From contig JAKLKB010000149.1 in NCBI GenBank assembly GCA_023150835.1, positions 1 to 15,491 of the forward strand: DNA of 15,491 nucleotides, read 5' to 3'. Under the pieces are notes generated by a model that was not told the origin of the DNA, ran no database searches, and was given only the letters and a program-made list of their open reading frames with translations. Shown here piece after piece: positions 217-15,491 of this stretch. Each line of letters starts with the position of its first letter. The stretch's first letter is position 1. This stretch comes from Myxococcota bacterium (lineage in GTDB: Bacteria; Myxococcota_C; UBA6777). The translations under genes and the position numbers were made by a program.

Positions 217-243
217 GACACCCTCTGGCGCGGTGGACAAAAA

Positions 244-362
244 ACCCCGTATTCGCACCCGTCGCAAGCGACAGAGTCGCTTGTTTGAAAAACGACGATC
301 TATTCGCCAAAACGGGGTCAAGGGGCGACAGTCCCTTGTGGGGTGTGGGGTGACACCCCACC
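244..362. repeat. Cluster of three hairpins in non-coding DNA, probable second repeat family
   Basis: Three short perfect stems follow each other: CAAGCGAC/GTCGCTTG (265-272 and 276-283, loop AGA), CAAGGG/CCCTTG (319-324 and 333-338) and GTGGGGTGT/ACACCCCAC (338-346 and 353-361). An outer pair, ACCCCGT near 244-250 and ACGGGGT near 312-318, brackets the first stem. A 109-codon plus-strand frame (233-562) crosses the cluster. It looks like translated repeat DNA: Arg/Lys-rich, with no domain and no ribosome binding site seen. The rest of 217-567 shows T-rich runs near 405-495 but no gene. Confidence 0.5.
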
Positions 363-567
363 AGATAAACCAACCGCGTAAGTCCGATCCAGATACGAGA
401 GAAAAAGATTTTTGGGTATTTCTTGCGTCTTCTGTTGATAGGAGAACGGAGAAGGTCGAAAAAAACTTGATGCTTTTTTTGAAAGATTTTTTTAGGGCGC
501 AAAGCGATTTGTTTTTGGTGTGCCAGAAGGATGTGGCGAGGATACGGAGAGGGGAGGTTTAGCGGCG

Positions 568-3027
568 TTAGCGGCGTTTGCGTTGTTTTTTGCGGGGCTT
601 GGGTGCGGAGCGGGCGTAATGGAGGCCGCGACAAGAAGAGAAGAGAGCGCGTCGTGCGCGGGGGCAGGAAGGTACGCGCAGGGATCTTCCTGCGGGGAGG
701 CGTCCGATGGGGATGTCGGGGTTGAGGGCGCGGAGTTGCCAAGGAGTGGTGCAGACTTGACAAGCGAGCCATCCGAGGGGTTCGCCGCCTTTGGTGCGGT
801 AGGTGGTGAGGGGAGCGTTGGCAGCGGCAGCAAGGCGTTGTGCAGGGATGCGGAGAGTGATGCGGGGAGGCAAGTTGCGGGAGGGGGAGAGCGGTTTGGG
901 GCAATGCTTGCGAGCGATCGAGCGGATCTTGTAGGAGATCTTGCGATCTTTTTGTTTGATGCAAAGGGTGGCGAGGGGGAGAGCGGTGGAGGTTTTGCGT
1001 TGTTGTAGTTCTTTGGAAAAGGCGGACTGATGGTCTTTTGTGAGAGTGGGCGTATTGGCTTTGAGGAGTGTGGAGAGGGGGATGTTGTAGCGTTTGGCGA
1101 TGCGGTAAGGCGTTTCGCGTTTTTGAGTGGTGTGGAGCTTGGTGGAAGGTCCGGAGCGTTGGTGTTTTTTGAGGGCAGCTTTGATCGAGGCGAAGCGTTG
1201 GATGGGCAGGCGGAGTGGAAAATACGCAGGGATGGGATGATCGGGATCAGCGAGCAATTTTCGCAGCATGGGGTTGTAGAGGTCGAGTGTTTTTTTGGAG
1301 AGTTGTGTGAGCTTGAGCAGATCCTCAAGCCAGAGGGGTTCGGGCAACAAGAACTCGCGGAAGCGGATGGGTTTTTGGGCGGCGCGGTGGGAGGCGCGTT
1401 GATCGTTGTGGATGAGCAGAGCGGAAGCGAGGAACTTGGCGTAAAAGTTTCGTCCATCAAAGCCGAAGCCACGGTTGCGGGAGCGTTGGATGATGACATC
1501 GAGCTTTTTGGTTTGGAGGCGTCGGGCTTCGTTGAGGATGCGTCCGGGGCCTTGGTTGTAGGAGGTGATCGCAAGAGGCCATGATGTGGGGAAAAAATGG
1601 CGGCAGAGTTTGATAAAGCGCGAAGCTGCGTGGGTTGCGAAGATGGGATCAAAGCGTTCATCGAGTTTGCGGTGGGGGATGGACTTGTTTTGTGGAGGGA
1701 CGAACAGGCCCAATTCTTTGGCGGTATCGGGCATGAGTTGCCACAAGCCGAGCGCGCCGACAAAAGAGCGGACCCATGGGTTGTACATGGATTCGACGAA
1801 GGGGAGGGCGGAGAGTTGTGGGGGGAGTCCAGCTTTGCGGAGGGTGGCTTGGATATGGGGGCGATAACGGCGTTCGATGCGCAGTCCGTGTTGAAAGAAA
1901 TGGCGGTAGCTGCTTTGCCAAGAGAGCTTGGTGCGGGCGAGATAGCGAAACATCTTGTGCCAGCCGGAAGTTTGGTAGCGAGGCTCTTTACGGATCTTGC
2001 GATAAAGCTGTCGGGTCGAGGCGGACAGCCCTTTGAAGGCGTGATGCCAGCGTGTGCGGTCGATGGATTCGGGCTGATAGCGCATGAGGTTCCAACAGAT
2101 GGCGCGCAAGCGTTTTTTGTCGAGTTCTTGGAGGCAGGCGCGTTGTCGGTTGCGCGATTGGGCGATGGCATCGGCTTCAGCGCGGGCTTCTTGTGCGGCG
2201 AGTTCTTTGAGTTGCGTGCGGATGTTCTGAAGTGCAGCAGCGCTGATCTCGCGGCGTTTGTTGGTTTTGATGCGGCGCTGTGCGGGTGTTTCGGTGGGGG
2301 AGAGTTCTGCGCCCGGGGTGGGGAGTTCTTTGAGGATGATGCGTGTTGGAGGATCAAAGAGGATGGCGTCGGCTTTTTGTGCGCCGCCGAAGACTTGGTG
2401 CCAAAAGCGAACACGAGCGGCGATCGGAAGAGGGACGGGAAAGACGCCGAGTTGCTTGGGGAGTTGAAAGTCAGCGTTTCGCAAAGCGCGGGTGCTTGGG
2501 GTGGGGACGCCGATCTTTTTGAGGGCAGCATCCAGAGCGTGTTGATCCTCGATGGCAAGGGCGTGTTTGCTGCGGCTGCTTCTACGCGGCGTGGGCGTCT
2601 CCTCGCTGTCGAAAGAGTCGGAAGAGACTGAACGAGCGGTCTTTTGAGTGCGTTTGCGGGCTGCTTTTTTGGTACGCTTGCGAGCGGTCTTTTGGGTGCG
2701 TTTGCGGGCTGCTTTTTTGGTGCGCTTGCGAGCGGTCTTTTGAGTGCGTTTGCGGGCTGCTTTTTTGGTGCGCTTGCGAGCGGTCTTTTGGGTGCGTTTG
2801 CGGGCTGCTTTTTTGGTGCGCTTTTGGGTGGAGGTGCGGAGCTTTTTTGTGCGTTTGCGGGTGGTTTGTTCGCGGGCGATGCGTTTGGTGGAGCGCGGTC
2901 GTGGCTTGGGGGTGTGATCTTCTTGTGGTGATGGGGTGTTGTTGTCGGGCTTGGCTTCGAGGGGGAGCGGCAGAGCGAGGCCTAGGCCCAAGAAGAGAAA
3001 GAAGAGGGGGAAAATAAGCTTTTGCAT
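568..3027 (-). CDS. MltD-like lytic murein transglycosylase with LysM-like domains and a Lys/Arg-rich tandem repeat
   Basis: Predicted to cleave peptidoglycan glycan strands in the periplasm, forming 1,6-anhydro-muramyl ends. The 819-residue product begins with a signal peptide (about 1-25, ending LEA). Then comes a basic tandem repeat (about 57-132) built of RKRTKKAA and RKRTQKTA units. The SLT fold spans about 385-545: LPFVESMYNP gives the likely catalytic Glu412, followed by GALGLWQLMPDTA (424-436), SYNQGPG (489-495) and NFYAKFLAS (527-535). A LysM-like segment lies near 631-675 and a second, poorer one near 742-786, followed by a basic C-terminus. A purine-rich AAAGGAA lies about 12 nt before the ATG, which is rather far. 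The basic repeat is not part of the usual MltD plan and may bind anionic polymers. The gene lies 108 bp after the PBP4 gene. Family call is firm; substrate detail is inferred. Confidence 0.9.
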   Translation of the reverse strand: MQKLIFPLFFLFLGLGLALPLPLEAKPDNNTPSPQEDHTPKPRPRSTKRIAREQTTRKRTKKLRTSTQKRTKKAARKRTQKTARKRTKKAARKRTQKTARKRTKKAARKRTQKTARKRTKKAARKRTQKTARSVSSDSFDSEETPTPRRSSRSKHALAIEDQHALDAALKKIGVPTPSTRALRNADFQLPKQLGVFPVPLPIAARVRFWHQVFGGAQKADAILFDPPTRIILKELPTPGAELSPTETPAQRRIKTNKRREISAAALQNIRTQLKELAAQEARAEADAIAQSRNRQRACLQELDKKRLRAICWNLMRYQPESIDRTRWHHAFKGLSASTRQLYRKIRKEPRYQTSGWHKMFRYLARTKLSWQSSYRHFFQHGLRIERRYRPHIQATLRKAGLPPQLSALPFVESMYNPWVRSFVGALGLWQLMPDTAKELGLFVPPQNKSIPHRKLDERFDPIFATHAASRFIKLCRHFFPTSWPLAITSYNQGPGRILNEARRLQTKKLDVIIQRSRNRGFGFDGRNFYAKFLASALLIHNDQRASHRAAQKPIRFREFLLPEPLWLEDLLKLTQLSKKTLDLYNPMLRKLLADPDHPIPAYFPLRLPIQRFASIKAALKKHQRSGPSTKLHTTQKRETPYRIAKRYNIPLSTLLKANTPTLTKDHQSAFSKELQQRKTSTALPLATLCIKQKDRKISYKIRSIARKHCPKPLSPSRNLPPRITLRIPAQRLAAAANAPLTTYRTKGGEPLGWLACQVCTTPWQLRALNPDIPIGRLPAGRSLRVPSCPRARRALFSSCRGLHYARSAPKPRKKQRKRR
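2632..2823. repeat. 48-bp in-frame tandem repeat, 4 copies, inside the transglycosylase gene
   Basis: The segment GAGCGGTCTTTTG recurs at 2634, 2682, 2730 and 2778, exactly 48 bp apart. Each unit encodes 16 residues on the minus strand. One base alternates between units (TTTTGAGTG in copies 1 and 3, TTTTGGGTG in copies 2 and 4), which suggests that a 96-bp two-unit block was duplicated. Copy 1 also carries GGTACGCTT where the others have GGTGCGCTT. Copy number could vary between strains without breaking the frame. Confidence 0.9.
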
Positions 3028-5720: not shown

Positions 5721-7532
5721 TCATCTCCTTTTTTCTGAGAGTGAACGGTGACGAAAAGGGCATGGTGAGCAGCTCGACTTTAACAGCGCGCAAGCGTGTT
5801 GCAAGGCTTCGTCCTCGTCTGCAAACCAAGGGGATTGGTTTGAGAAAAGGTGTTCAAGTCCGATCTCTTGGGCAACACCGACGCGCTCAAAGATCTGTTG
5901 GGCATCTTTTCGTAGGCCTGCAAGCACCAGCCAGCGGTTGGTTTGGCGGAGCCGTTTGGCGGCGTCTTGGAATACGGTCGCGATGGTAAAGTCGAGACCT
6001 TGTGTGCGTTTCAGGCGAAGCAAAAGAACTTGCGTCTGCGGTCGGTTGATCTCTTCATCCAGCAGGTGTTGTAGTTCGCCTTCGACACCAAAGAACAGAC
6101 GCCCTTCGATCTCAAGGATGCGGATAGAAGGGCAGAGTGGGCGTTGCTCAAGAGACTCCATCTCAAGGAAGCGGTGGTCGACATCCAAGGTGAGTGCGGT
6201 GAATACGAGAAATCGGGCCTTTCGCAAGAAAAGCACCACAGAGATCCCGACGCCAAGGTAGATGGCTTTGTCGAGTGGTATCAACCATGTACCAAACAGC
6301 GTCACAAGAAAAGCAGAGCGATCGGAGAGTCCACTTTGCATGACAGAGCGGATCTTTTGGAGATCGATCAAGTCGATGGCGATCACGATGATCAATCCAG
6401 CGATGGCGGCGAGGGGCATGTAGTTCGCAAGGGGACCCAAGGCCACAAGGATCAACAGCATAAACAAGCCGCTCAAGATACCCGATAATCGGGTTTGTGC
6501 GCCGCTGCGATAGTTCAGGCCCGAACGTGCAGGGCTTCCGCTGACGGGATACCCTGTAGCTACGGATGCTGCGAGGTTGGCGAGTCCTTGCCCTACAAAG
6601 TCGGTGGACATCTCAAGGCGTTGACCTGTGTGGGTCGCAAGCGCCCGACCGACCGCGCTCGATTCGACAAGAGACAACACCGTACAGGCGATCGCAAGCG
6701 GTAGAAGTTGAACAACCAACCGCAGATCGGGCAAAGAGAACGCTGGAAGTCCACCGGGGATCGGTCGCAGATCCATCACCAGTTTGAGTCCGTAAGCGTG
6801 CAGATCCCATCGCAAAGAAAGCACCGTCGCAAGCACCGTCACGATCAATGGGCCCGGGATGGCCGTGTGGACGCGGCGAAGCCCAAAGATCAAAAGAGCA
6901 GAAGAGACAGCCATGATCACCGAAACAAGGCTGGTTTGAGGGATCTGCGTGATCCACATCCCTAGTTTTTCAAAGAGCGTTCCGTGTCCGCCTTGGGTGG
7001 CGGTGATCACGGGAAGTTGACCGAGACCGATCAGCAAAGCGGCCCCTGTGATGTAGCCCAACACGACGGGCCTTGAGATGTAATCGACGACGGCTCCGAG
7101 CCCAAAGATCCCCGCCATCAACTGGAAAATCCCCGTCAAGAAAGCCAGCGTGACAGCGATCGTCACAGGGTCGATCCCTTGTAGGGCCAAGATGCCACCG
7201 CCCACAAGCAAGCTGACTGCGTTGGTTGGGCCTGTCACAACGTGGTGTGAGCTGCGAAACAGGCCACCGACCAGCGTTGGAAACGTCGATGCGTAAAGCC
7301 CCATTGCAGGGGGAAGTTGAGCGATCGCCGCATACGCGATACCTTGAGGAACCCCCAAGAACGTCACGACCGATGCTGCGACCACATCGCGCAGTAGATA
7401 AGCGCGCTTGTATTGTTTGAGATCGAGGAAGGCGAACCAATGAAGAAAAACCATCGTGTACTCAAATCCGACCGTGTAGAGACGACTCGTGAGAAAAGGT
7501 TGCGCGACCGATGCTCCGCGAACAAAGATCAT
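5721..7532 (-). CDS. SulP (SLC26) family inorganic anion transporter with STAS domain
   Basis: An inner-membrane anion transporter; SulP proteins carry sulfate, bicarbonate or other anions. The 603-residue product has many hydrophobic segments from about 48 to 440, including [20 protein letters not shown] (61-80), the conserved GPTNAVSLL region near 101-109 and the family hallmark [12 protein letters not shown] (327-338). A cytoplasmic STAS domain follows at about 468-585. The ATG at 7532 overlaps the lon stop as ATGA, which supports coupled translation, although no good ribosome binding site is visible. An alternative ATG at 7454 (MVFLHWFAF) would give a more usual N-terminus. The stop lies 2 nt before the persulfide-dioxygenase-like gene. 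That neighbour hints at sulfate or sulfite as cargo, but the sequence alone does not settle it. Confidence 0.92.
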
Positions 7533-10462
7533 TTGTTGGAAGTTGGGGGGAAGGCTTGAAGGGGGGTGCTGTGAGCGGTCGGCTGTTGGGGCATCAAAGA
7601 AGGAGGAGAAGCGAAGACGAGAGGGACGACTTCTTCGTAGTGTTCGACAAAGTAGGCAGTGAGTTTGGCGCGGATATGTTCGGGGACTTCGCCGTAGTCG
7701 AGTTGGTTTTGTTTGGGCAAGATCACGACGCGCACGCCTGCGGAAGCAGCGGCCACCACTTTTTCGCGGATGCCGCCCACAGGCAGGACATCGCCCATCA
7801 AGGTGATCTCGCCCGTCATGGCGGTGTCTCCGCGTGGGGGCGAGCCTTGTGTGCTAAGCAAAGACAGTAGGGCTGTGGTGATGGTAATGCCTGCGGAGGG
7901 TCCGTCTTTGGGGACGGCTCCTGCGGGGACGTGGAGATGGATATCGGTTTGTTTGAGTTGGTCGAGATCGATCGCAAAGCGTGCGGCTTGGGATTTGAGA
8001 TAGGAGAGGGCGATGCGTGCGGACTCGGTCATCACTTCACCGAGGCGGCCCGTCACTTCGACGCGGCCTGTGCCTTGGAAGCGGGTGGTTTCAAAAAACA
8101 AGATATCGCCGCCCACAGGGGTCCACGCAAGGCCGACGGCACTTCCGACGCGGGTGGGGCGTCCCTCAAGGCGCGAACCTTGATGGCGAGGCGGCCCAAG
8201 ATAGCGCTCGATATTGCTTTTTTGGATGATCGCGTGTTTGGGATGCGGGTGTTCGTCACCTTGTTGTTCGGCGATGCGGATCGCGACCTTGCGCACGATC
8301 TGGGCGATCTCGCGGTTGAGGTTGCGGACGCCGGCTTCGCGGGTGTAATGCTTGATGATCTCCTGAAACGTGGGTGCAGCGATCCGCACCGCTCCTTTGG
8401 CCAGTCCGTGATCTTCGATTTGTCGAGGCAAGAGATAACGGCGAGCGATCTCGACTTTTTCTTCGGGGATGTAGCCCGGGATCTCGATGACTTCCATGCG
8501 ATCGAGTAGAGCGGCGGGGATGGCGTCGCGGTCATTGGCGGTCGCAAGAAACATCACCCGCGAAAGATCGAAGGGAACATCAAGGTAATGATCGAGATAC
8601 TTGTGGTTTTGCGCGGGATCGAGGACTTCAAGCAGCGCAGAGGCTGGATCGCCGCGCCAGTCTTTGCCGATCTTGTCGATCTCGTCCAACATAAACACAG
8701 GGTTGTTGCTTCCGACGCGGGCAAGTCCTTGTAAGAGTTTCCCGGGCATCGCTCCCAGATAAGTGCGCCGATGTCCTTTGATCTCCGCTTCATCGCGCAT
8801 CCCACCAAGCGAGAAGCGAAAGAACTTTCGCCCCATCGCTCGCGCAATCGATTGTCCAAGCGAGGTCTTGCCGACACCGGGCGGACCGCTCAAACACAAG
8901 ATCGCACCGCGCTGATCGGGCTTGAGCTTTCGCACCGCTAAAAATTCAAGGATGCGTTCTTTGACGCGATCAAGGCCAAAGTGGTCCTGATCGAGGATTC
9001 GTCGCGCTTGTCGGATGTTGAGCTTGTCTTTGTCCTCGCGTGACCAAGGCAGATCGCAGAGCCAATCGAGATAGGTGCGGATCATATTGTACTCCCCAGC
9101 CTCGGGAGGTAAGACCCGCAGACGACGTAGCTCTTGCTCTGCGCGTTTTCGCGCATCTTCGGGCATCTTGGCTTCTTCGATCCGCTTGGCGTATTTTTCT
9201 CCGTCCAGTTCTTTTTCGTCGCGCTGTTCGCCCAATTCGCGTTGGATGATCTTGAGTTGTTCGCGCAAAAGATACTCGCGTTGCTGTGCTTCGGTGCGTT
9301 CTTGAAGCTCTTCGCGCAGTTTCTTTTGAAGGCGGATCATCTCAACTTCTTTAAGCAAAAAGCTTAGGGCGTTTTCGAGGCGTTTGCGCACAGACAGCGT
9401 CTCAAGGAATTCTTGTCGTGCGTGAAATTCTTGGAGAAAGTGGGAGGCCACAAAGTCGGCAAGGCGGGTGGGAGACTCGATGCCTCGGATCACTTGATCA
9501 AATTCGTCGGGCAAGTTGGGCGAGAGTTTGACGACTTCTTCGAGGCTTTGGCGGATGCTACGGGAGAGGGCTTCGAGGGTGCTTTGATCGCCTTCTTGGA
9601 TCTCATCCTCAAGCAAGGAGACACGTGCGATTACAAAAGGCTGCGTGCGGATCGTTTTGACGATGCGGCAGCGGCGGATCACTTGAAGCAGTGCGGTCAT
9701 CACCCCGTTGGGAAGTTGCATCACTTGCATCAAACGTGCGACCGTTCCGACAGGATGGAGTTCGTGGGGACCCGTCACTGTGGGGGTCTCTTCGGACGGT
9801 GGTTTTTTTCGCGCAAAGATGGCGAGAAATCGTTGCTGCTCGGCTTGGGTGATGATATCTCGCAACGGGCCTTGAGGAAGGGCGATCGGCAAGATCATAC
9901 CGGGAAAAAGAACTTCTTCGCTCAGAGGCAACACAAACAGATTGCTCGGCGGCTGTTCCGCAGGAACCACCGAACGCGGAGGCTCCAGCAGCTCGCCGTC
10001 TTCGTCTACTTCAAGCGGCAGATCCTCTCGCGTGTGCCATCCTGCCGAACTATGGCGCATCGACGGATCGAGGATCTCGGCCTCAACGAGATCTTCGTTG
10101 GATATCTCGACTTGCTTCTCGGACGCCGACGCTACGGTCTCTGCGGGCGGATGGGATGTGCCTTGTGCGGGCGGATGGGACGTGCCTTGTGCGGGCGGAT
10201 GTGACGTGTCTTGTGTGGGCGGATGTGACGTGTCTTGTGTGGCGAAGTTCGCGCTTTCTTCGGCGGGTGGGTGCGTGACATCAAATATCTGTAGGTCTTC
10301 GGTGGGATTGTTCTCGGGCAGTCCTTGTGGATGCGGCAGATCCTGTACATCGTGGTGTGTCTTTGATGCTTTGGGAGATCTGCGTTTGGTTTTTTCTGTT
10401 GGGGAGGCCGATGTTGTCGAGGTGTCTTGTGGGAGGGCGTCGCTGTTTTTTTTCTTCGCCAT
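7529..10462 (-). CDS. lon: ATP-dependent Lon protease with extended N-terminus
   Basis: A cytoplasmic AAA+ serine protease that degrades misfolded and regulatory proteins. In the 977-residue product the Lon N domain starts near 174 (LFVLPLSEEVLFPGM), a coiled-coil stretch spans about 360-450, Walker A is GPPGVGKT (526-533) and Walker B is FMLDEID (590-596). The proteolytic dyad is Ser856 (KDGPSAG) and Lys901 (GGIREKV), so the enzyme should be active. It is about 190 residues longer than E. coli Lon. The excess is mostly a low-complexity N-terminal extension of about 173 residues that carries four TSHPP-containing repeats (about 76-107), plus a Pro/Ser/Thr-rich tail. The start at 10,462 follows AAAAGGA with 6-nt spacing; a frame open to 10,582 has no such support. 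The stop overlaps the SulP start. It is divergent from the RNase J gene. Confidence 0.96.
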   Translation of the reverse strand: MAKKKNSDALPQDTSTTSASPTEKTKRRSPKASKTHHDVQDLPHPQGLPENNPTEDLQIFDVTHPPAEESANFATQDTSHPPTQDTSHPPAQGTSHPPAQGTSHPPAETVASASEKQVEISNEDLVEAEILDPSMRHSSAGWHTREDLPLEVDEDGELLEPPRSVVPAEQPPSNLFVLPLSEEVLFPGMILPIALPQGPLRDIITQAEQQRFLAIFARKKPPSEETPTVTGPHELHPVGTVARLMQVMQLPNGVMTALLQVIRRCRIVKTIRTQPFVIARVSLLEDEIQEGDQSTLEALSRSIRQSLEEVVKLSPNLPDEFDQVIRGIESPTRLADFVASHFLQEFHARQEFLETLSVRKRLENALSFLLKEVEMIRLQKKLREELQERTEAQQREYLLREQLKIIQRELGEQRDEKELDGEKYAKRIEEAKMPEDARKRAEQELRRLRVLPPEAGEYNMIRTYLDWLCDLPWSREDKDKLNIRQARRILDQDHFGLDRVKERILEFLAVRKLKPDQRGAILCLSGPPGVGKTSLGQSIARAMGRKFFRFSLGGMRDEAEIKGHRRTYLGAMPGKLLQGLARVGSNNPVFMLDEIDKIGKDWRGDPASALLEVLDPAQNHKYLDHYLDVPFDLSRVMFLATANDRDAIPAALLDRMEVIEIPGYIPEEKVEIARRYLLPRQIEDHGLAKGAVRIAAPTFQEIIKHYTREAGVRNLNREIAQIVRKVAIRIAEQQGDEHPHPKHAIIQKSNIERYLGPPRHQGSRLEGRPTRVGSAVGLAWTPVGGDILFFETTRFQGTGRVEVTGRLGEVMTESARIALSYLKSQAARFAIDLDQLKQTDIHLHVPAGAVPKDGPSAGITITTALLSLLSTQGSPPRGDTAMTGEITLMGDVLPVGGIREKVVAAASAGVRVVILPKQNQLDYGEVPEHIRAKLTAYFVEHYEEVVPLVFASPPSLMPQQPTAHSTPLQAFPPTSNK
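10139..10236. repeat. 24-bp in-frame tandem repeat, 4 copies, in the lon N-terminal extension
   Basis: GGGCGGATGKGAYGTGYCTTGT-like units recur every 24 bp on the plus strand, ending in CCTTGT twice and TCTTGT twice. On the minus strand they encode the octads QDTSHPPT, QDTSHPPA and QGTSHPPA. The last two units in lon reading order keep Gly in place of Asp. The repeat lies upstream of every catalytic domain and probably forms a flexible linker. Confidence 0.85.
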
Positions 10463-10703
10463 GCGAAATCCTTTTGGGTATGAGGTGTGACATCCGTTTG
10501 GTGCGTTGAGCGGCGCAAAAGAGAACGCGGTTTGGATGCTCGAAATCGGCGTGTCTTCGGCGAGACAAGACGATCTAACCACCCTCGCACAGTAGGCAAG
10601 CGAACAGGATTGTTGTACAAGGTGGATTCGCGCCGTTGGATGGACAGGTTGCGCCTCTTCGTGAGATAGTCAAGCGAAAAAGGGTTGTTGCGAGAAGGAT
10701 GGA
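10463..10703. promoter_or_regulatory. Divergent intergenic region between lon and the RNase J gene
   Basis: These 241 bp separate two genes read outward in opposite directions, so promoters for both must lie here or inside the genes. A TTGACT (minus strand, plus coordinates about 10,667-10,672) resembles a -35 box but has no good -10 at the right distance. I see no clear heat-shock sigma-32 type promoter. Only the two ribosome binding sites are clear: AAAAGGA before lon and AGAAGGA before the RNase J ATG. Confidence 0.4.
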
Positions 10704-12580: not shown

Positions 12581-12610
12581 CACTCCTATGGAAAGAAAGG
12601 CGTCAAGGTG

Positions 12611-14479
12611 ATGGAGCGAGCGGATACGCTTCGAGAGTTGTTGCATCCGTTGGAGAGGTTTGTTTCTGCGGATGTTTGTGCGGCGGAGTCTTTGGAGCGT
12701 GTCTGCGAGATATCGCCGCCGACGTATCTTTACGAAGGGGACGATCCCAACGATGTGTCCGAAGGATCGGGAGCAAAAAAACGGTTGTGGTTGCCGCGTA
12801 CGGTGTTTGTCGAACAGATCGCTCGGGGGTTGATGCGGCAGTTGCAAGAAGGCGAGATGGCTCCATCAGAAGGCAAGATGTTTGGGGTGTTGTTGGTACG
12901 CGATGCTGCGGGAAAACTGGGCGTATTGAAGGCGTTCTCTGGGCTTTGGCAAGGCGATGATCGGCGGAAGGGTTGGGTTCCACCGATCCCGGGGCGCGAA
13001 GAAGTTGCACAAGAAGAACAAGCGACCATCGCTGCGCTGAACGAGATGAAAGCACGTCTGATCGAACTGGCGGATCTGCCTGTGCGTGCGGAGCTTGCGC
13101 AACAGCAGGCTGCGTATGTCGCTGAAGTGGCCGAAAAACGGGCTGTGTTGAAGCAGCAAAAACAGATCCGCGATCAACAACGGGCTTTGTGGGGGGAGGG
13201 CGCGGAGGCTTCGTGGGTGGAAGAGCAGATGCGCCTTTTGGAGCAACAAAGCCGCAGCCAAAAACAAGCTTTGCGTGCATGGATGCAGTCGCAAGAAGAG
13301 GCGTTGTCACCGCTGCGACAGGCCGTTTTCGAGGCCGATGCAGAGATGCAACGTCTCAAACAAGCACGCAAGCATCGTTCAAGAACCTTACAAGATCGGA
13401 TGTATGGGGCGTATCGCATCGCAAACTTCTCGGGGCGCGCTCGACCCTTGGAAGCCTTCTTTTCAGAAGGGCGCTTGCCCACAGGGACGGGGGATTGTTG
13501 CGCTCCGAAGCTACTGCATCTCGCGGCGACTCACCGATTGCGCCCCTTGGGACTGGCCGAGTTTTGGTGGGGGCCTTCCTTGCCGAACGGAAGTCGCGTC
13601 TCTGGCGAATTTTACGGCGCTTGTGCAGAGCGTTGCCAACCCATCATGGGCTTTTTGCTTTCAGGTCTTACTCCCCCCCAAAACAACCAAGAAGAACACT
13701 CGCCGCAGGTACAGATCCCCTCGCCACATCTGAATTCTACCGTATCGTTAGAAACACACACGCCGCAGGCGCGGACCATTTCGCAGCATCACGGCTCCGC
13801 CGCTTTGCTAGAAACATACACGCCGCAGATGCAGACACTCGCGCAACGCCTCGGGTGTTCGGTCTTGTACGAAGATGCGCATTTGTTGGTGGTGGACAAG
13901 CCAGCGGGTTTGTTGTCAGTCCCGGGGCGTACACAAGCACAGCAGGAAAGTGTGTTGGGGCGTTTGTGGTTGCAGGCGAAGCATGGGGCGTATTATGCGG
14001 CGGTGCATCGCCTTGATGCGCTGACTTCGGGGATCTTGGTGTTTACGCGAGAGATCGCGGTACACAGCGCCTTGCAGCGGCAGTTTCAGCAACGGAGTGT
14101 TGAAAAGCGTTATGAGGCTTTGTTGTCTCACCCGTTAGAGCAAGAAGAAGGTGTGATCGAACTTCCGCTGTGGGGAGATCCTGCGCAGCGCCCGTTGCAG
14201 CGCGTGGATTGGCTGCGAGGAAAGCCCGCTCGCACACGTTATCGCCTTCTTTGCTTGGAAGCAGAAGGCTGTCGGGTGGCTTTTTTCCCTGAAACGGGGC
14301 GCACACATCAGATCCGCGTTCATTCGGCTGATCCTGCGGGTCTTCACGCGCCGATTTGTGGCGATCCGTTGTACGGTGGACCTCCTGCACAACGTCTTTT
14401 TCTTCATGCTTGTGCGATCTCTTTTGTTCATCCAGTCACCCACGTTGTGCTGTCTTTGAGCAGCCCCGCTCCTTTTTGA
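12611..14479 (+). CDS. Two-part RluA-family pseudouridine synthase
   Basis: Predicted to convert a specific uridine of rRNA or tRNA to pseudouridine in the cytoplasm. The C-terminal RluA domain (about 408-615 of 622) contains YEDAHLLVVDKPAGLLSVPG, the catalytic motif HRLDALTSG (466-474, Asp469) and PETGRTHQIRVHS (560-572). The N-terminal half (1-355) has GKMFGVLLV (88-96), LKAFSGLW (106-113), a Gln/Glu/Arg-rich coiled coil (about 145-260), GTGDCCAPKLLHLAATH (292-308), LAEFWWGPS (315-323) and a Cys-containing FYGACAERCQPIMG (334-347). I know this N-terminal module from other large RluA-like proteins; its role is unclear. A 60-bp tandem repeat sits between the halves. The ATG at 12,611 has AAAGG 10 nt upstream; a GTG at 12,608, one codon earlier, is equally possible. 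No recognisable terminator follows. Confidence 0.9.
   Translation: MERADTLRELLHPLERFVSADVCAAESLERVCEISPPTYLYEGDDPNDVSEGSGAKKRLWLPRTVFVEQIARGLMRQLQEGEMAPSEGKMFGVLLVRDAAGKLGVLKAFSGLWQGDDRRKGWVPPIPGREEVAQEEQATIAALNEMKARLIELADLPVRAELAQQQAAYVAEVAEKRAVLKQQKQIRDQQRALWGEGAEASWVEEQMRLLEQQSRSQKQALRAWMQSQEEALSPLRQAVFEADAEMQRLKQARKHRSRTLQDRMYGAYRIANFSGRARPLEAFFSEGRLPTGTGDCCAPKLLHLAATHRLRPLGLAEFWWGPSLPNGSRVSGEFYGACAERCQPIMGFLLSGLTPPQNNQEEHSPQVQIPSPHLNSTVSLETHTPQARTISQHHGSAALLETYTPQMQTLAQRLGCSVLYEDAHLLVVDKPAGLLSVPGRTQAQQESVLGRLWLQAKHGAYYAAVHRLDALTSGILVFTREIAVHSALQRQFQQRSVEKRYEALLSHPLEQEEGVIELPLWGDPAQRPLQRVDWLRGKPARTRYRLLCLEAEGCRVAFFPETGRTHQIRVHSADPAGLHAPICGDPLYGGPPAQRLFLHACAISFVHPVTHVVLSLSSPAPF
13697..13876 (+). 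repeat. 60-bp in-frame tandem repeat, 3 diverged copies, at the domain junction of the pseudouridine synthase gene
   Basis: Units start at 13,697, 13,757 and 13,817, each opening with a CACNCGCCGCAG-like sequence. The first two are followed at the unit end by GTTAGAAACA or GCTAGAAACA. They encode three 20-residue copies: residues 363-382, 383-402 and 403-422. The last copy runs into the conserved start of the catalytic domain (RLGCSVLYED), so the first two look like duplications of the domain edge that then diverged. Confidence 0.75.
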
Positions 14480-14510
14480 GGAGAACTCGATCGCGCCTTG
14501 TTTCCTGCGT

Positions 14511-15106
14511 GTGTTGCGGCTATCCTGCGGATATCGTGCGTGTTTCTTTCCTCTGGATGGGGCGTACGCAGTGGATAAAAACCCGTGTTTGCGCTGTTTC
14601 AAGCGAGAGAGTCGTTGGTGTGAAAAACCGTTCAATCAGCGACCTCACGTTGTCCATGCCTATGGTATCGACAGCGAAGGCGGAGCCAATGCAGAACTCG
14701 CCGATAGCCCGCGCACTTTGCAGTGTTCTTTGCCCCCGCTCCAAGGGGTAAAGCGCTTGCTTTCTGATCCAAAGACTTTTGAGACGTGGGGCTTTTCGTT
14801 GTTTTGGGATGTCTTGCCTGCGCCTGATAGCGCCTTTGCGAGCCTCCCCGTAGGCGAACCGCTACCAAGCAAACCACAACTGGTTCGTGCAGACGATCAA
14901 AAGCCCCATGTTTGGCTGATCGATGGCGTGTATCGCCGCCATGTCGCTTCGATGAAGATCTTGTTGAAAACTCTCCCGACACAGGAACGCCCCGTCGCCC
15001 GCCTGTGCAGGGCTGTGGATGTCGAGCTGCTTCGTCTCCCTCCTTTTCTTCTGGTTTGTTTTGGCTCGCTTTGTTTGTTCTAGGCTATCGGCGAAAAAGG
15101 CGGTAG
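14511..15106 (+). pseudogene. Probable frameshifted secreted cell-wall-type protein with MYXO-CTERM-like tail
   Basis: Two overlapping frames look like parts of one protein. The first (GTG 14,511, open to 15,083) encodes GVKRLLSDPKTFETWGF (about 14,745-14,795) and, later, HVWLIDGVYRRHVAS. Spaced motifs of this sort (KR-x-I/V-x-S/D-P, F-x-x-W/C-G-F/Y, VWLIDG-x-x-RRHV) recall repeats found in secreted peptidoglycan amidases and other wall proteins. The second frame, -1 relative to the first, takes over near 14,950 with FDEDLVEN and ends at 15,106 with QGCGCR, a hydrophobic stretch (GLFWLALFVLGY) and RRKRR, a MYXO-CTERM-like sorting tail. No catalytic domain is present and the start is unsure: GAGGAG at 14,478 is too far from the GTG. 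A signal-peptide-like piece from TTG 14,498 lies in the same frame as the tail but stops near 14,574. It may be a decayed gene, or an intact one with a sequence error. Confidence 0.5.
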
Positions 15107-15232
15107 TCTTCTCGCTTTGTGTCTTTTCTGTGGAGTACAAATCGCGTCACGCTCACCCCGTCGCTTTGCGACGCCCCTCTCTCTGCGACGCTCGCTTTAT
15201 GACAAACGTGCGGTGGCTCGGCAAGAATAGAC
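15107..15232. other. Non-coding spacer between the broken gene and the tandem array
   Basis: I see no gene here. The one structure is a tight hairpin, CGTCGC-TTT-GCGACG at 15,159-15,173, without a following T-run, so it is not a convincing terminator. A minus-strand frame that crosses this stretch exists only because the neighbouring array lacks stop codons. Confidence 0.4.
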
Positions 15233-15491
15233 GATAAGAAGCCTCTGGTTTGTGATAAGAAGCCTCTGATTTGTGATAAGAAGCCTCTGGTTTGTGATAA
15301 GAAGCCTCTGGTTTGTGATAAGAAGCCTCTGGTTTGTGACAAGAAGCCTCTGATTTGTGATAAGAAGCCTCTGGTTTGTGATAAGAAGCCTCTGGTTTGT
15401 GATAAGAAGCCTCTGGTTTGTGATAAGAAGCCTCTGGTTTGTGATAAGAAGCCTCTGGTTTGTGATAAGAAGCCTCTGGTTTGTGATAAGA
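15233..15491. repeat. 21-bp direct tandem array, 12 full copies plus 7 bp, continuing past the window edge
   Basis: The unit contains AAGAAGCCTCTGGTTTGTG and repeats exactly every 21 bp from 15,233 (15,254, 15,275 and so on up to 15,485). Only copies 2 (GATTTGT for GGTTTGT) and 6 (GACAAG for GATAAG, and also GATTTGT) differ. There are no spacers between units. Because 21 is a multiple of three, two plus-strand and three minus-strand frames stay open through the array; the third plus frame meets TGATAA in every unit. No start codon with a ribosome binding site is visible, so coding is not supported. Near-identity of the copies implies recent expansion or homogenisation. Confidence 0.95.

Follow-up and report, generated by a model that had tools for sequence, protein, structure and literature searches.

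Remnants of a broken gene near the contig end

The window analyzed here, a 15,491-nucleotide stretch of DNA, comes from a draft Myxococcota genome (G000) assembled into 239 contigs at 93% completeness. Near its 3' end, a gene survives as two pieces in different frames, remnant A (14,631–14,966) and remnant B (14,967–15,106). The closest genome compared, the Myxococcota MAG KLAP109 (G001), belongs to the same genus and carries the corresponding locus on contig C453 (L063; CAUJFU010000453.1). The features of the window region, with G001 coordinates referring to C453, are as follows.

12608..14479, + strand: RNA pseudouridine synthase, the intact upstream neighbor (Pfam PF00849, E 1.3e-28)
14487..14630, no strand: intergenic DNA 5' of the broken gene, 90% identical to G001 509-652, upstream of the intact gene
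14630..14631, no strand: deletion junction 1; 1,529 bp of G001 (about 653-2181) gone, with 1 bp (G) common to both sides
14631..14966, + strand: remnant A, 112 codons, from the segment that follows the Cys-rich repeats and precedes the linker (residues ~472-584 of the 735-aa G001 protein P0001)
14966..14967, no strand: deletion junction 2; 319 bp gone relative to G001 (about 2518-2836), with 1 bp common to both sides
14967..15106, + strand: remnant B, the MYXO-CTERM tail ENSPDTGTPRRPPVQGCGCRAASSPSFSSGLFWLALFVLGYRRKRR with stop TAG, in a frame different from that of remnant A
15131..15195, no strand: second short interspersed repeat (CGTCACGCTCACCCCGTCGCTTTGCGAC...), just 3' of the broken gene, with 86-91% copies on several contigs
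15233-15491: 21-bp tandem array GATAAGAAGCCTCTGGTTTGT, 12.3 copies, running to the contig end

Reading of the open reading frames gave an open frame from 14,511 to 15,083 (190 codons) and a separate frame ending in GCGCR...RRKRR with its stop at 15,106. A preliminary description of this DNA had reported a protein-like frame and a MYXO-CTERM-like tail in different frames, and both are present. The open stretch of the remnant A frame spans 207 codons, and neither remnant contains a premature stop. A Pfam search of the window frames at the broken gene returned no match, and the VanY domain is absent from the window locus; the region surviving as remnant A is without a Pfam match in the G001 protein too. 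At the protein level, remnant A is 94-95% identical to G001 (protein search, E 4.5e-68), 52% identical to G004, and 49% identical to G002, and remnant B matches the G001 tail at 87% identity.

The pseudouridine synthase is colinear with L064 and L063 at 90% identity, and its last part adjoins the intact gene on G001 C453. On the other side, contig C112 of the window's genome opens with the 21-bp array as well, oriented the same way, so C112 and the window's own contig, C92, are probably neighbors broken at this array. In G001, C103 opens with a variant form of the array (GATATGAAG...), beyond which its DNA is colinear with C112. Elsewhere in the window, 24/48-bp tandem repeats occur at 2633-2823 in a transglycosylase gene (568-3027) and at 10142-10239 in a Lon protease gene (7529-10582). 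The Lon repeat region is 48 bp longer in the window than in G001 (24 + 16 + 8 bp), in frame.

An intact VanY-type gene in related genomes

On C453, G001 carries a single uninterrupted frame of 776 codons with its stop at 2976. Read from an inner start, the encoded protein has a lipoprotein-like N-terminus (...LVSACG) followed, in order, by a D-Ala-D-Ala carboxypeptidase domain of the VanY type (PF02557 at C453 1036-1347; 65.6 bits, E 5e-18), Cys-rich repeats, a conserved region that ends with VWLIDGLYRRHVASM, a low-complexity linker, and a MYXO-CTERM tail. The G001 and window genes adjoin the same pseudouridine synthase; in the window, however, the start is gone along with the VanY domain, Cys-rich repeats, and linker, and what is left lies in two frames. 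The comparison of this locus with a related genome that had been suggested at the outset thus finds a whole gene in G001 and a cut one in the window.

Full-length orthologues are found in G002 and G004, both from another genus of the same family (frames of 645 and 646 codons). In G003, from a third genus of the family, the frame is 701 codons long; it shares the VanY domain and ends in a similar tail, but its middle part differs. The suggestion that the two window segments derive from one gene is supported by G001, G002, and G004, in all of which they are joined in a single open frame. The neighbor genes of the window were not found beside the G002–G004 copies. Since the VanY part is present in three further genomes of the family, the window's lineage has lost this DNA, and G001 did not gain it. 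A literature search found nothing on the sister MAG or on pseudogenes in Myxococcota MAGs.

Two large deletions relative to the sister genome

The window and G001 C453 align in three gap-free pieces at 89-92% identity: 14,487-14,630 with 509-652, 14,630-14,966 with 2181-2517, and 14,966-15,133 with 2836-3003. The 1,529-bp deletion between the first two took the start codon and signal peptide, the VanY domain with the Cys-rich repeats, and some of the region that follows. Because 319 equals 3 x 106 + 1, the second loss moves the tail out of the frame of remnant A. The frame switch, previously put near 14,950, is therefore located at 14,966/14,967 and is a 319-bp deletion.

These alignments bear on two rival explanations. 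A single-base indel, or two compensating indels, might have killed an otherwise present gene, as two frames of one gene lying side by side would suggest. The remnants nevertheless align to G001 without single-base gaps, the losses amount to 1,529 bp and 319 bp, and the catalytic domain is absent rather than frame-shifted. We thus regard this explanation as extremely improbable: the frame change proposed as a single-base event is a 319-bp change accompanied by a separate 1,529-bp loss, and gap-free alignments flank two large losses where compensating indels had been considered. Indels in the aligned intact coding parts of the window contig are multiples of three. Alternatively, programmed ribosomal frameshifting could fuse both frames into one product. 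Only the openness of both frames and the intact tail speak for it; in relatives, the joined protein is read without a shift from a single frame, the frame change was made by the 319-bp loss, and the native start and signal peptide are gone. Its probability is negligible, in agreement with the earlier judgment that such shifting was unlikely: the G001 gene is translated without one, and the window has just lost the DNA that lay between the two frames.

Upstream DNA consists of intergenic sequence and an interspersed repeat

From about 14,565, the intergenic DNA is the left part of an interspersed repeat that the deletion cut off at 14,630. This repeat is ~160 bp long with GC-rich inverted-repeat parts, and it occurs at window 229-398, truncated at 14565-14630, and at L063 588-757. 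Among the 40 of 654 candidates scored, it was found in at least 39 places in the genome at E 1.8e-17 or better, and it is present in the sister genome too; its copies lie mostly within short or stop-broken frames. An Rfam search of the window and L063 gave no match, so the repeat is not a described RNA family there.

We considered 14,511-14,630 as an N-terminal coding part of the gene and rejected this reading because the segment matches DNA upstream of the G001 gene and is in part a many-copy repeat found in short or stop-broken frames. The frame start at 14,511 taken for part of the gene is thus replaced by 14,631, where the remnant begins. Similarly, the signal-peptide-like stretch proposed from TTG 14,498 corresponds to G001 DNA that lies upstream of the gene. 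Given the 90% match to that DNA and the interspersed repeat, it is best read as a chance occurrence.

The interval separating the pseudouridine synthase from the gene is ~195 bp longer in G001 than in the window (window 14483-14487 versus L063 311-508), and this extra DNA contains another repeat type (GATGCCCTATTGTTGGGCAG...).

The tail is a complete MYXO-CTERM tag out of frame

The MYXO-CTERM tag is cleaved by the myxosortase MrtX in Myxococcus xanthus and consists of a Cys signature motif, a hydrophobic helix, and an Arg-rich C-terminal end (PMC11980579). The window tail scored 24.9 bits against NCBIfam TIGR03901 (E 1.9e-5; 24.4 bits in the genome scan), above the curated cut-off of 20 bits, so its assignment to this type stands. 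Tails above the cut-off numbered 15 in the window's genome, including that of the broken gene, and 0 in 14 control genomes. The architecture is complete, with the GCGCR Cys motif, the hydrophobic stretch SFSSGLFWLALFVLGY, and RRKRR directly before the stop at the very C-terminus. The window tail thus shares with the TIGR03901 tag the GCGC-type Cys motif, the hydrophobic stretch, and the Arg/Lys-rich end; unlike that tag, it is joined in frame to no secreted protein, being out of register with remnant A and with the signal peptide within the deleted part.

Selective constraint and the age of the loss

Between remnant A and G001, 19 of 26 differences fall at third codon positions (one-sided binomial p 4e-5), with dS 0.31, dN 0.024, and dN/dS 0.077. 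This ratio is as low as those of the intact neighbor genes (0.066-0.197); remnant B gave 0.29, but its 45 codons are too few to interpret. The substitutions in the remnant indicate that selection maintained the gene through most of the period after the divergence from G001. With constraint retained and no premature stop, there is no sign of long drift, which leaves either a recent loss or an error in the assembly.

An assembly error would imply that the organism keeps the whole gene and that the contig was misjoined near its end among interspersed and tandem repeats. Consistent with this, the locus lies <1 kb from a contig end that falls inside the 21-bp array, junction 1 is within an interspersed repeat, and the larger remnant shows no relaxed constraint. 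However, two independent joins within 340 bp would be needed, each junction has one shared base where assembler joins normally need long shared words, and junction 2 lies in unique gene sequence. Nor did a protein search find a displaced copy of the missing parts elsewhere in the window's assembly; the other VanY genes of G000 that it recovered are paralogues with <=57% identity. A DNA search for the missing parts found the interspersed repeat alone among the 40 of 654 candidates scored, and for this reason the protein search is the better test for displaced copies. We consider an assembly error unlikely, and less likely than recent loss, and infer that the organism itself has lost this DNA.

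The same low dN/dS of remnant A, together with the open 207 codons of its frame, might instead suggest a shortened gene that is still used, with its start either within the intergenic repeat or at a codon farther inside. Such a gene would have neither signal peptide nor native start, would run out of register after 14,966 with its sorting tail in the other frame, and the low ratio is explained by constraint that preceded a recent loss. Continued use of a shortened gene is therefore very unlikely, and the remnant presumably yields no product.

A probable pseudogene left by two deletions

It is highly probable, judging from the sequence comparisons, that the locus is a pseudogene left by two internal deletions, an instance of ordinary gene decay and not a frame-shifting gene. 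The ancestral gene would have encoded a surface-sorted VanY-type (M15) D-alanyl-D-alanine carboxypeptidase with a MYXO-CTERM tag. Two losses would have struck it in the window's lineage: one of 1,529 bp, reaching from part of the upstream interspersed repeat through mid-gene, and one of 319 bp between the conserved region and the tail, which pushed the tail out of frame. Both deletions appear to have arisen by end joining with almost no homology. The absence of the catalytic domain had already been taken as a sign of decay, and with an intact VanY domain in relatives this is still the best reading. The locus resembles other bacterial pseudogenes formed by internal deletion in its loss of the start and catalytic part, a frame-breaking deletion whose length is not divisible by three, and intact orthologues in relatives, and shows no notable difference from them. 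A broader proposal, that interspersed repeats of the families seen in this genus favor repeated, nearly homology-free deletions so that adjacent surface-enzyme genes are lost or trimmed time and again, seems to us quite improbable.

By homology, the lost gene probably encoded a peptidoglycan D,D-carboxypeptidase, and the enzyme may have been delivered to the surface by the MYXO-CTERM/myxosortase route, by analogy with Myxococcus xanthus (PMC11980579). The function class was not lost, since the genome keeps four other VanY-domain matches and the same window encodes an S13 carboxypeptidase. Automatic annotation could call two false small proteins at the broken gene, and the case shows that deletion, rather than frameshifting, can be the origin of a frame split beside a sorting tail. 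The finding by itself carries little weight: it represents one lineage-specific loss of a surface-tagged cell-wall enzyme whose paralogues are kept in the same genome.
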